Source: Thermodesulfovibrionales bacterium (GTDB lineage: Bacteria > Nitrospirota > Thermodesulfovibrionia > Thermodesulfovibrionales > UBA9159). Taken from it: DNA of 55,598 nt. The stretch is from contig DASRZP010000088.1 in assembly GCA_035686305.1 (NCBI GenBank), positions 1-55,598 of the forward strand. The letters are read 5' to 3'. Positions 6,857 through 52,733 of this stretch are shown here, in pieces (the first letter of the stretch is position 1; each line of letters begins with the position of its first letter). The position numbers and the translations under genes were made by a program. The notes under the pieces were generated by a model that saw only the letters and a list, made by a program, of their open reading frames with translations, searched no databases and was not told the DNA's origin.

Positions 6857-9126
6857 TCAGCAAGGAACTCGAGATGGTTATCGAAGCGACGATACGGGAT
6901 GCAAAGGCACGGCACCATGAATACCTCACCGTCGAACATATTCTCTATGCTGTCATCCACGATGACCGCGGCATCGAGATCATCGCTAATTGCGGCGGGA
7001 TGATCGGAAGAATCAAGGCGTCTCTCGAACGATTCTTTGAGGAGAATGTCCCCAAGAGCAAGGCGGAATCGGAGATCTATCCCCAACCTGCGATCGGTTT
7101 TCAGCGCGTCCTCCAGAGGGCCTTGAACCATGTCCGGGCTGCGGAGAAGAGTGAGGCCGACGCAGGAGATATCCTTGCTGCACTCCTCCTTGAGGAAGAT
7201 TCCCACGCCGTTCACTTCCTCCACACAGAAGGCATCTCCCGCCTCGACGTCCTGAACTACATATCTCACGGTATCCCGCGCACGCCTCACGCACAGGGAG
7301 AGGAGAAGAATGACGAAGGAGAGCTGTCTGTCCCTCAGAACGACTCCCATCAGGCGAAAGATCCTCTCTCGCTCTTCACCGTAAACCTCAATGAAAGGGC
7401 GGCAAAGGGTGATATCGATCCCCTTGTCGGCCGCGACCTGGAACTCGCCCGGACGATGCAGGTGCTGAGCAGGAGGAGGAAAAACAACATCGTCTTTGTT
7501 GGTGAACCGGGAGTCGGCAAGACCGCCATTGTCGAAGGACTCGCCCTGAAGATCTTTCAGGGAGAGGTGCCTGATGCCTTGAAGGGCGCGAAGATTTTCC
7601 TTCTCGACATGGGCGGGATGCTTGCGGGAACAAAATATCGCGGAGACTTTGAAGCGCGCCTGAAGGCGACGATCAAGGGTGTTGAAAAGATTCCTGGAGC
7701 GATTCTTTTTATTGACGAGATCCACACGATTGTCGGGGCCGGGGCGACGAGCGGCGGGTCCATGGACGCATCGAACATCCTGAAACCTGTCCTTATCACG
7801 GGGAAGATGAGATGCATCGGCGCAACAACCTATGAAGAATACAAGAATTACTTCGAAAAGGACCGTGCTCTATCACGCCGTTTTCAGAAGATAGAGATCC
7901 AGGAACCGACGGTTCCGGAGACCCTCCTCATTCTCAAGGGCCTGAAGGCATACTACGAAGAATTTCATGGCGTGAAATACACTCAGAGCGCCTTGAAGTC
8001 TGCTGTTGAACTCTCGGCAAAATATATAAATGACAAGTATCTTCCGGACAAGGCGATCGATGTCATTGATGAGGCAGGCGCCATGACGAAGCTTTCGGCG
8101 GTGGATGGAAAGAAAAAGACCGTCGCCCATATCGAGATCGAGAAGGTCGTGGCAAAGATAGCCAGGATCCCTTCGAGAAATGTATCCTCTTCAGATACGG
8201 ACAGGCTGAAGAATCTGGCAGATGAACTGAAAAAGGTCGTCTTCGGCCAAGACGATGCCATCAACGCTCTTGTTTCGGCCATCAAGAGGTCCCGCGCGGG
8301 CCTCGGCTCTGCCGAAAGGCCGATCGGCTCCTTTCTCTTCACGGGGCCCACGGGCGTAGGTAAGACAGAGGTCTCAAAGCAGATGGCCGTCGTCCTCGGT
8401 GTTTCCTTCTCCCGTTTTGATATGAGCGAATACATGGAGAAACACGCCGTGGCCCGCCTCATCGGGGCGCCGCCGGGGTACGTCGGCTTTGACCAGGGGG
8501 GATTGTTGACCGAGACGATCCGGAAGCACCCGTACAGCGTTCTTCTGCTCGACGAGATCGAGAAGGCCCATCCTGATATCTTCAACATCCTGCTCCAGGT
8601 CATGGACTATGCGACCCTGACGGACAATACGGGCAAGAGGGCAGATTTCAGAAACGTGATCCTTATCATGACTTCCAATGCAGGAGCCAGGGATATGGAC
8701 AGGAACGTCATCGGCTTTGGCGATAGGACAAAAGATACCCATGCAAAGGGCGCTGAGGCTGTCGGCAAGCTCTTCAACCCTGAATTCAGAAACCGTCTCG
8801 ACGGCACGATAAACTTCGGACACCTCACGAAGGACATTATGAAGAAGGTCGTCGACAAGTTCATCAGGGAGTTTGAAGAACAGCTGAATTCCCGTAAGGT
8901 ACGGCTTCACGTGTCGGAAAGCCTCCGTGACCGGCTTGCAGTCAAGGGGTATGATCCCCTTTACGGGGCGAGACCCCTCGGACGGCTTATCCAGACAGAA
9001 TTGAAAGATCCCCTGACGGATGAACTCCTCTTCGGCAGGTTGAAGAACGGCGGCACCGTCTCGATCGACCTCACAGACGGCACAATCGTCTTTGATTATC
9101 CGGAGATAACGCAAGAGGGTCAATGA
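6853..9126 (+). CDS. clpA: ATP-dependent Clp protease ATPase subunit ClpA
   Basis: ClpA is the AAA+ unfoldase that threads proteins into ClpP. The 757-residue product has the N-terminal Clp repeat domain (about 1-145), a first AAA module with Walker A GEPGVGKT (about 218) and Walker B ILFIDEIH, and a second module with GPTGVGKT (about 496) and Walker [12 protein letters not shown]. The C-terminal domain contains the GARPLGR sensor-2 motif. I start it at 6853 (protein beginning MISKELE) because this ATG overlaps the clpS stop as ATGA and matches the usual ClpA N-terminus; an ATG at 6835 would add six residues. No clpP is present in the window. Confidence 0.96.
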
Positions 9127-49454: not shown

Positions 49455-50561
49455 ATGGCCGACAGACTGACTGAAGAACATTTCATGGAGAGGGCTATCA
49501 TGCTTGCAGCGAGGGCGCGGGGGATGACGAGCCCGAACCCCATGGTCGGAGCCGTCATCGTCAAGGATGAGAAGATTATCGCCGAAGATTATCACAGAAA
49601 AGCGGGTACTCCTCATGCAGAGGCCCTTGCACTCTCAAAGGCCGGAAGGGATGCGAGGGCATCCACGCTTTATGTGAGCCTTGAACCATGCTGCCACACC
49701 GACAAGAGGACGCCGCCCTGCACAAAGGCGATCATAGGAGCGGGCGTCAAGAGGGTCATCGTGGCCATGAGAGATCCCAATACGAAGGTCTCGGGCAGGG
49801 GAATCAGGGAATTAGAAGAGGCGGGCATCAAGGTCATATCGGGGATAGCCGAGGCGAAGGCCCGAAGGCTAAACGAATCCTATATCAAATACATAACTAC
49901 GGGTAAACCCTTTGTCACGTTGAAGGTCGCCATGACCCTCGACGGCAAGATCGCGACACCCGAAGGCCAATCGAAATGGATAACGGGACAGAGGGCACGG
50001 CTCGTCGTCCATAAGCTGAGAAGCGGCGTTGACGCCGTCATGACCGCAATCGGCACTGTCAAGACAGATGATCCTCAACTCACAGTAAGACTGAAGGGAA
50101 AGCGGAAGAACCCGGTAAGAGTCGTCATTGACCCTAACATCGAGATTCCTCTCGATGCGAAGATACTCAAGGTCCCTCCTGAAACGATCATTGTTGCGAA
50201 AGAGCCCGATGCGGCGAGGAAGTCCGTGCTCGCTCACAAGTTAGAAAACCTCGCCCTATCAGGAACATCATTGCTATATTTTAGAGAAAAGCTTGCTCTT
50301 CATTGGCTCATGGAGAGGCTTGGCGAGAGAGGGATCACTTCCGTAATGATTGAGGGCGGCTCCTCCCTCAATGCCCATGCCCTTGAGGACGGAATCGTCG
50401 ATAAGGTGATCTTCTTCATCGCGCCCAAGATTATCGGCTCCAGAGAATCTTTCCCGGCAGTTGGCGGAAAAGACTTCAGGAGACTTGAAGACGCCTTCTC
50501 GCTCAAGGATATGCGCGTCAGACGCCTGGGAGATGATATCATGATCGAAGGTTATCTGTAA
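49455..50561 (+). CDS. ribD: Bifunctional riboflavin biosynthesis deaminase/reductase RibD
   Basis: RibD performs the deamination and reduction steps of riboflavin synthesis. The N-terminal deaminase domain (about 1-145) has the zinc site HAEALAL and PCCHTDKRTPPC; the C-terminal reductase domain (about 150-368) has TLKVAMTLDGKIATP, SKWITG and VMIEGGSSLNA. The 368-residue length is normal. A TATACT box lies at 49433-49438, 16 nt before the ATG, so the leader is very short. No other rib genes are nearby. Confidence 0.96.
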   Translation: MADRLTEEHFMERAIMLAARARGMTSPNPMVGAVIVKDEKIIAEDYHRKAGTPHAEALALSKAGRDARASTLYVSLEPCCHTDKRTPPCTKAIIGAGVKRVIVAMRDPNTKVSGRGIRELEEAGIKVISGIAEAKARRLNESYIKYITTGKPFVTLKVAMTLDGKIATPEGQSKWITGQRARLVVHKLRSGVDAVMTAIGTVKTDDPQLTVRLKGKRKNPVRVVIDPNIEIPLDAKILKVPPETIIVAKEPDAARKSVLAHKLENLALSGTSLLYFREKLALHWLMERLGERGITSVMIEGGSSLNAHALEDGIVDKVIFFIAPKIIGSRESFPAVGGKDFRRLEDAFSLKDMRVRRLGDDIMIEGYL

Positions 50562-50644
50562 TGCTGCTGTCACCAGACGGCAGATCCTTCTTGACGATTT
50601 CCGCGCAGAATGGCGACTCTCTGCATGTGAGCGACTCGTTGATA

Positions 50645-50653
50645 TGGTATAAT
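50645..50653 (+). promoter_or_regulatory. Extended -10 promoter immediately before the DUF1573 gene
   Basis: TGG-TATAAT is a perfect extended -10 element (TATAAT at 50648-50653). The ATG at 50659 begins five nt after it, so transcription would start at or beside the start codon. There is no ribosome binding site between them and no good -35. Confidence 0.65.
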
Positions 50654-50658
50654 GTGAC

Positions 50659-51057
50659 ATGAAGAAGATTATTCTAGTTTGCGCGATCCTCTTCCCTGTC
50701 ATGGCTTATGCCCAGCCCTCCATACACTTTCAAGATGAGATCCATGATTTCGGAGAGGTGAAGGAGGGGACGCAGTTGGAGCACGTCTTCGATTTCGAAA
50801 ACGCAGGAACCTCGGACCTCATGATCTCAGGAGTAAAGGCATCCTGAGGATGCACTGCAGCGATGGCTAGTTCAAGCCATCTGAAGCCGGGAGAAAAAGG
50901 GAAAATAACGGCAAGGGTCGATACCGCCAAGAGAAGAGGCATTCTCGTCAAGACAGTCGAGGTCTTCAGTAACGCCACGGATCGACCCAGGACGGTCCTC
51001 ACCCTGAAAGCGATGGTGAAAGGTCCTGATACTTCGGCCATACCCCCGACAAAGTAG
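50659..51057 (+). CDS. DUF1573-family exported protein, probable selenoprotein (TGA at codon 63)
   Basis: Read with the TGA at 50845-50847 as selenocysteine, this is a 132-residue protein. It has a signal peptide (KKIILVCAILFPVMAYAQ) and one DUF1573 domain with the family start HDFGEVKEGTQLEHVFDF and, after the TGA, GCTAA, LKPGEKGKITARVDTAKRRG and VEVFSNATDRP. The TGA replaces the first Cys of the conserved Ser-Cys-Gly-Cys-Thr motif, giving Sec-Gly-Cys. The downstream half has full family similarity in the same frame, and a SECIS-like hairpin starts 14 nt after the TGA. A nonsense mutation is the main alternative. The Sec-Gly-Cys pair would suit periplasmic redox chemistry. ResB- and CcsA-like genes are convergent next to it. 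Confidence 0.75.
50845..50883 (+). promoter_or_regulatory. SECIS-like element for UGA recoding
   Basis: After the UGA (50845-50847) come 14 nt, then GATGGCT (50862-50868), loop AGTTCA (50869-50874) and AGCCATC (50875-50881): a perfect 7-bp stem with a 6-nt loop containing GU at 50870-50871. Two lower pairs (C58-G83, A59-T82) extend the stem past a 2-nt bulge. In E. coli fdhF the loop GU is at positions 23-24 counted from the U of UGA; here it is at 26-27, within the range of bacterial SECIS elements. Confidence 0.7.
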
Positions 51058-51066
51058 GAGGATTCT

Positions 51067-51810
51067 CTAGCCCGCCTCACTCCTCCCTTCGCGTCCCGTT
51101 TTGAGTAGAACAAGCATCACTGTTCCGGAGAGAAAGAGTACCCCTCCGGCAAGCGCCCATGGTGCGCCCGGCTCCCTTGTAATCTCAAGGAGGACCGTTT
51201 TTTCCGGGGATGCCCTCAGATCCTTCACGTAGACCCCTAGTCCTTCCCGGAGAGACGGTCTGTTCGGCATAAGTAGCTCTTCATGCACCATCCTTCCCTC
51301 AGAGAGGTATGCGACATCAACTGCCCAATCACTCACGTAACCATAAGAGTCGACGGATATGGTTATGCTCCTGACCTGAAGGGTCGTATTGTTCGGGAGA
51401 TTGAAAGAGGCACCCTCCCGAGCTACTGCCATACCTTTAAAGCTGCCCATTGCGCTCAGGAAATGGGCAAGGAGAATAACGAGAAAGCCGATATGGATTA
51501 TCTGGGGCGAGATCAGGAGGAGCCATTGAGCATTCCTTCTCTTCCTGATGACCGATTCGATGCTGCAGAAAAGGGTATTCGCCGTCAGGACAGAGAGGAG
51601 ACCTACCGAGGCCCATAACCACCAGGTTATGCCCAGCGGCTGCTCCTTCATCCATCCGAAAAGAGGAAGGGAATGGATCGACTGGAATTCCTCTTTCAGA
51701 GGCATGATACATGCTCCTCCCAGGAGCATGATGAGCAGGAAGAGGAGGGACCAGAGAGTCGTCCTCAGGGATACAAAGAAACCTAACGTGTGTCTTATGA
51801 GCTTATACAT
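51067..51810 (-). CDS. ResB-like cytochrome c biogenesis protein, short form
   Basis: The 247-residue membrane protein has hydrophobic segments near 10-35, 65-85, 95-120 and 220-240 and a periplasmic part (about 125-215) with SFNLPNNTTLQVRSITISVDSYG and GVYVKDLRASPEKTVLLEITREPGAPWALAGG. This matches the ends of ResB/Ccs1, the heme-handling partner of CcsA in system II, but full ResB is about 450 residues; the large periplasmic insert is reduced. It lies downstream of the CcsA-like gene on the same strand, with a repeat-bearing 158-nt gap. Confidence 0.75.
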   Translation of the reverse strand: MYKLIRHTLGFFVSLRTTLWSLLFLLIMLLGGACIMPLKEEFQSIHSLPLFGWMKEQPLGITWWLWASVGLLSVLTANTLFCSIESVIRKRRNAQWLLLISPQIIHIGFLVILLAHFLSAMGSFKGMAVAREGASFNLPNNTTLQVRSITISVDSYGYVSDWAVDVAYLSEGRMVHEELLMPNRPSLREGLGVYVKDLRASPEKTVLLEITREPGAPWALAGGVLFLSGTVMLVLLKTGREGRSEAG

Positions 51811-51968: not shown

Positions 51969-52733
51969 TTAAAAAGTATGAGAACTCTTCATTAACAGAC
52001 TCACTCCGAGATAGGTGAACAAAACGACTCCGAAACCTGCCATGCCAAGAATGACAGCAGGTTTCCCATTCCACCACGTTCTCAGCCGGGCGTGGAGATA
52101 GGCGGTGTAATAAAGCCAGAGGATGCTTGTCCAGAGCTCCTTGGGAGTCCATAGCCAGTACGTTCCCCACGCAAGATATGCCCACACTCCCCCGACTATC
52201 ATCGACAAAGAGAAGAGGCAGTATCCGACAAGGATCGTCCTGTATTGAAAGCCTTCAAATGAAGGTTCCTGCCCCCGAAGGAAAAGGTATCCGAAAATAG
52301 CGGCCAAGGCGAAAAGGGCATAGGAGAGAAATGCCAGGACAACATGGAGTTCGAACCAAAGGGTTTTGAGAACGGGTGGAAGGGGAGTATTATGCTGTTT
52401 TGAGATGAGGCCGAATATCGTAAAAGCAGCTGCCGTCAGAGCAGCTGCGGAAGAGAATCGCTCATTCTTCCTCGGAATGTTCCGAAAAGGAAGTGAGAAG
52501 GCGACGATAGACGCTGCAATGAAGGTGAGGGTGTCGTGGGGTCCCACCAAGGGCAGCCTTCCGAGACCCAAGCCCCTTGAGACGATATACGTTATCTGCA
52601 GGAGGAGCCCGGCATACAAAAAGGGCCTCTTCCAGAGGCTCAAGAGATACAAAGGAAAGACTGCGAAGGCCATCCGCAACGAAGAAAAGAAAAAGAACAG
52701 CTTCTCGGGAGTCTCTGCAGGGAAGAGCAGCAT
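51969..52733 (-). CDS. CcsA/ResC-like cytochrome c assembly protein
   Basis: This 254-residue polytopic protein resembles CcsA, which presents heme to apocytochrome c. It has about eight hydrophobic segments, a conserved His in WFELHVVLAFLSYALFA (about 127), the tryptophan-rich loop WGTYWLWTPKELWTSILWLYY (two halves, about 189-209) and YLHARLRTWW (about 213). The loop normally reads WxWDPKE; here the Asp is Thr. Heme attachment needs the ResB-like partner encoded downstream on the same strand. Confidence 0.85.
   Translation of the reverse strand: MLLFPAETPEKLFFFFSSLRMAFAVFPLYLLSLWKRPFLYAGLLLQITYIVSRGLGLGRLPLVGPHDTLTFIAASIVAFSLPFRNIPRKNERFSSAAALTAAAFTIFGLISKQHNTPLPPVLKTLWFELHVVLAFLSYALFALAAIFGYLFLRGQEPSFEGFQYRTILVGYCLFSLSMIVGGVWAYLAWGTYWLWTPKELWTSILWLYYTAYLHARLRTWWNGKPAVILGMAGFGVVLFTYLGVSLLMKSSHTF

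Follow-up and report, generated by a model that had tools for sequence, protein, structure and literature searches.

The window analyzed here, a stretch of 55,598 nucleotides from one contig of a Thermodesulfovibrionales genome (phylum Nitrospirota), contains a DUF1573 gene that is interrupted by an in-frame TGA (Table 1). This TGA is the single internal stop in the frame and is followed directly by GGA-TGC (Gly-Cys); the sequence around it reads GVKAS-U-GCTAAMASSSHLKPGEKGKI. The original prediction, made from the DNA alone, held that the TGA falls exactly on the first Cys of the conserved Cys-Gly-Cys motif and that the family frame stays open beyond it. Both points were borne out: with Cys placed at residue 63, the product matches Pfam model PF07610 (DUF1573) from end to end (profile positions 1 to 98 of 98, 92.3 bits, E value of 2.1e-26). 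The domain search also returned the HYDIN/VesB Ig-like family. As such, the gene combines the two features under which DUF1573 selenoproteins are listed in the literature, namely, the pfam07610 domain and a Sec-Gly-Cys motif (UxC/UGC). The N terminus resembles a signal peptide, which supports the predicted placement of Sec-Gly-Cys in a protein that is probably exported.

Table 1. Features at and around the DUF1573 locus, in window coordinates
Feature	Position	Strand	Basis or remark
DUF1573 selenoprotein gene	50659..51057	+	132 residues; Sec at 63; stop TAG at 51055-51057
Likely signal peptide MKKIILVCAILFPVMAYA, followed by QPS	50659..50712	+	read by eye
TGA, very probably read as selenocysteine (residue 63)	50845..50847	+	alignment with relatives
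TGC, Cys65, partner in the Sec-Gly-Cys motif	50851..50853	+	
SECIS hairpin, 7-bp stem; loop AGUUCA at 50869-50874	50862..50881	+	fold, covariation
Putative extended -10 promoter TGGTATAAT, directly 5' of ATG	50645..50653	+	comparison with relatives
ResB-like gene (cytochrome c biogenesis), convergent neighbor	51067..51810	-	adjacency not conserved
CcsA-like cytochrome c assembly gene, neighbor	51969..52733	-	adjacency not conserved

Relatives of the window protein were searched in 396 genomes of the phylum and were present in 109, the nearest being Nitrospirota/Thermodesulfovibrionales metagenome-assembled genomes (MAGs). A TGA lies inside the match in 87 of these 109 genomes, and for nearly all of them we verified the codon itself. 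An alignment covering the site comprised 170 distinct sequences: 85 have TGA as this codon, 68 have TGT or TGC, and 3 have TTT. The other 14 have a TGA at the preceding residue, in a U-x-x-C arrangement or one like it. As is expected of a bacterial selenoprotein gene, the in-frame UGA of the window is thus aligned with the Cys of homologues; in 85 aligned proteins, residue 63 is always Cys or Sec. At this site, relatives recovered outside the phylum (from Bacteroidota, Aminicenantes, Chlorobiota, and others) use a sense codon, nearly always for Cys. In a tree, the Sec and Cys forms are split by one change, at a weak support value (67). The distribution of selA follows that of the codon, with the gene found in 79 of 87 genomes carrying a Sec form compared to 6 of 22 genomes with Cys forms only (Fisher P = 5e-9). 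The 8 Sec carriers in which selA went undetected are perhaps incomplete assemblies, although 5 of them are listed as 85 to 100% complete.

The genome to which the window belongs (3.23 Mb, 97.7% complete) has the corresponding decoding machinery. It encodes selA and selB near each other on contig 63 and a tRNA-Sec scoring 70.6 bits, and its selD (L021; contig 57, positions 7793 to 8716) has an in-frame TGA of its own after LSRTCG, with a stem-loop downstream. A search for selA, selB, selC, and selD had been proposed along with the original prediction, and the full set, as expected of a selenoprotein-producing bacterium, is present. The presence of two genes with an in-frame TGA (DUF1573 and selD) could also suggest a reassigned code in which TGA specifies an ordinary amino acid, but we reject this reading as having a negligible probability, as TGA is otherwise an ordinary stop in the window, where it terminates 13 of 38 long open reading frames, and as the TGA in DUF1573 replaces one Cys column only and tracks with selA.

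Downstream of the TGA, we confirmed the perfect 7-bp stem with a 6-nucleotide loop that the original prediction had noted. The hairpin, GATGGCT-AGTTCA-AGCCATC, begins 14 nucleotides past the TGA and has a predicted folding energy of -9.5 kcal/mol. Published rules for bacterial SECIS (bSECIS) elements specify a loop of 3 to 9 nucleotides, a stem of 4 to 16 bp, a G in the first two loop positions, a distance of 16 to 37 nucleotides from the UGA, and an energy of at most -7.5 kcal/mol (PMC13188914). The window hairpin, with a loop of 6 nucleotides, a stem of 7 bp, G in second position, and 21 nucleotides from UGA to loop, agrees with every one of these rules. By itself, this is modest evidence and not decisive: of the 2,255 TGA trinucleotides on both strands of the window, 15 have a similar stem whose loop carries an early G, and the 55-nucleotide fold is not unusually stable (z-score of only -0.46). 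An Rfam scan of positions 50000 to 51500 gave no match.

What places the element far beyond chance is the recurrence of the aligned TGA in relatives together with strong covariation of the stem. In a gap-free alignment of 72 Sec genes, 93.3% of the cells in the 7-bp helix are paired, with two-sided changes in 6 of the 7 pairs. Compensatory cells number 97, compared to 39 in shuffled alignments, and the covariation score is 0.514, whereas it is 0.275 after shuffling and never exceeds 0.166 when the register is slid. With a protein-preserving control, the mean fold z-score is -1.56 for Sec genes versus +0.26 for Cys genes. The loop motif AGTTC is found in 83 of 99 Sec genes versus 4 of 68 Cys genes, and Cys homologues lack the hairpin itself. 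Where the motif is U-x-x-C, the hairpin is displaced downstream along with the extra codon. When the genome was searched with a SECIS model derived from these relatives, the window site was the only strong hit (69 bits; the next scored 16.9), and no further selenoprotein genes were revealed.

Taken together, the comparative evidence makes it very probable that the UGA is decoded as Sec with the help of the downstream SECIS hairpin. Neither of the outcomes that the original prediction had named as counting against Sec decoding, a genome devoid of sel genes or a lack of homologues with a UGA or a conserved stem, was encountered; rather, 85 distinct sequences carry TGA at the aligned codon, and the stem covaries. 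The same observations bear on whether the TGA is instead a true stop in a pseudogene or an error for TGC or TGT. That reading draws on the single MAG-like assembly and on the weak folding statistics of the window hairpin alone, but we rejected it as highly improbable because the same TGA and covarying stem recur in many independent genomes; the frame is also free of any other stop or frameshift.

Some Cys homologues have weak sequence remnants at the SECIS position (16 to 17 bits). Two such Cys genes (L132 and L135), from a family without a detected selA, carry an AGTTC-like stretch there. These remnants could derive from a SECIS that was lost, or they may simply reflect protein conservation.

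The region upstream of the gene was also compared among relatives. A TATAAT-like box starting 8 to 16 nucleotides 5' of the ATG is present in 46 of 71 Sec relatives (loci L076 to L176), compared to a mean of 11.8 and a maximum of 21 in shuffled sequences. The box often takes the extended -10 form, TGnTATAAT, and a Shine-Dalgarno sequence is usually absent. The box stands directly before the ATG, mostly without a Shine-Dalgarno sequence, and this arrangement suggests that transcription from an extended -10 promoter probably yields leaderless mRNAs. On the other side, the ResB-like and CcsA-like neighbors would fit a cytochrome-related role, but their adjacency is not conserved among relatives and was discarded as a functional clue. 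The neighbors that do recur in relatives are UvrA-like and protein-L-isoaspartate methyltransferase-like genes (names judged from their sequences).

While the window protein is of the stand-alone type, relatives include fusions of DUF1573 to a cytochrome c domain (PF13442, E value of 4e-11) that contains two CxxCH motifs, to SCO1-SenC (E value of 4e-18), and to a carboxypeptidase-regulatory-like domain. The dihaem cytochrome c domain is fused C-terminally to Sec-DUF1573 in L086, L026, L089, L096, L104, and others, and Cys homologues belonging to other families of the phylum show the same fusion. In L161, L166, and L172, SCO1 is joined to a DUF1573 domain in which U-R/K-x-C (or U-K-R/K-A) replaces U-G-C and the SECIS is shifted by the extra codon; L170, L173, L175, L178 to L181, and L184 have the same motif and shifted SECIS behind other N-terminal domains. 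Three loci (L170, L173, and L184) encode tandem DUF1573 domains with a pair of in-frame TGAs between which the frame is free of further stops. Across the 99 Sec sites, the motif is UGC in 82 and UxxC in 11, and the second Cys is missing in 6. Sec may act alone in some members, such as L102, L141, and L176, because the second Cys has been lost there (U-G-G, U-G-A, and U-G-S).

In the AlphaFold model, the window protein is an all-beta domain (mean pLDDT of 89) with residue 63 in a loop between strands 54 to 61 and 65 to 69. Foldseek matched it to ASH/PapD-like Ig domains (HYDIN, CEP192, and VesB), and the best PDB sequence match of the profile was 2qsv, a Porphyromonas gingivalis protein of unknown function. 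The predicted fold is therefore a single Ig-like (ASH/PapD-like) domain. A thioredoxin fold was considered and rejected on the basis of the all-beta model and these matches, so that the fold holding Sec would be Ig-like and not thioredoxin-like.

The mechanism that we propose begins with SelB, which, carrying Sec-tRNA-Sec, would bind the AGUUC loop of the hairpin and bring Sec to the ribosome at the UGA; translation would then run on via Gly64-Cys65 to the TAG. The evidence for SelB decoding via this hairpin is strong. The exported product would be a single Ig-like domain in which a short interstrand loop holds Sec63. Sec63 and Cys65 would most likely form a reactive selenol-thiol/selenenyl-sulfide pair in the periplasm and exchange electrons with c-type cytochrome or copper-protein partners. 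The fusions of DUF1573 to cytochrome c and SCO1 domains in relatives are the main grounds for a likely role in the periplasm, be it electron transfer, the reduction of thiols, or the handling of metals for cytochromes and copper proteins. For a redox role of the Sec63/Cys65 pair taken by itself, we consider the case about evenly balanced.

A possibility that we regard as real, if somewhat doubtful, is that Sec is decoded but the domain binds or delivers a metal such as copper instead of taking part in thiol-disulfide or electron exchange. The SCO1-SenC fusion, the Ig-like rather than thioredoxin-like fold, and the 6 variants that retain Sec without the second Cys would all suit such a function. 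On the other hand, a UGC or UxxC pair is kept at 93 of 99 Sec sites, as is typical of redox-active Sec, and the dihaem cytochrome c fusion fits electron transfer at least as well. We tentatively suggest, at somewhat less than even confidence, that this phylum uses the DUF1573 Ig-like domain as a versatile carrier of Sec, which occurs alone, in dihaem cytochrome c or SCO1 fusions, and in tandem two-Sec proteins, and whose partner Cys lies at +2 or +3 or is missing. Such proteins would constitute a class of selenol modules with an Ig fold that act in periplasmic electron transfer or in copper/cytochrome maturation. In annotation, a UGA taken as a stop truncates the window gene, and an exported selenoprotein that recurs across the phylum would thereby be overlooked.

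The original prediction went astray in supposing that DUF1573 was not a described selenoprotein family. OS_HP2 (pfam07610, UxC) was listed in 2008 (PLoS Genet; PMC2398784), and DUF1573 with UGC appears in the review tables of PMC9312934 and PMC13188914, with PMC9312934 crediting Zhang and Gladyshev (2007) for the DUF1573 selenoprotein. NCBIfam also holds a model, NF041425, named "OS_HP2 family (seleno)protein." The window protein matches this model over its full length (E value of 1.1e-21) at 77 bits, short of the curated cutoff of 100, and is homologous to its members but outside the curated subfamily. Since DUF1573/OS_HP2 is already on selenoprotein lists, the window gene represents a new member rather than a new family. 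In the open-access literature, we came across no paper dealing with Nitrospirota DUF1573 selenoproteins and no description of their breadth in the phylum, the dihaem cytochrome c and SCO1 fusions, the UxxC and Cys-less variants, the two-Sec tandem proteins, or the probable leaderless extended -10 promoter. The review tables consulted leave function open, and the large Sec/Cys set together with the cytochrome c and SCO1 fusions suggests a role for DUF1573 selenoproteins that can be tested.

Compared with known systems, the window protein is closest to the OS_HP2/DUF1573 selenoprotein, with which it shares the Pfam family and Sec-Gly-Cys at the family's CGC. The source given for OS_HP2 in 2007 is a symbiotic deltaproteobacterium, whereas the window protein is from Nitrospirota, and its relatives, unlike OS_HP2/DUF1573 as listed, include fusions, UxxC, and two-Sec forms. 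Cys-type DUF1573 proteins of Bacteroidota and others share the domain and the CGC position but have a Cys codon and lack the SECIS hairpin. The ASH/PapD-like Ig domains of HYDIN, CEP192, and VesB share the predicted fold, and the titles of these structure matches name no redox or Sec function. The N-terminal domain of DsbD is an Ig-like periplasmic domain with a redox Cys pair that feeds cytochrome c maturation. Absent among the structure matches shown, it is not a relative of the window protein but an analogy for how that protein may work.
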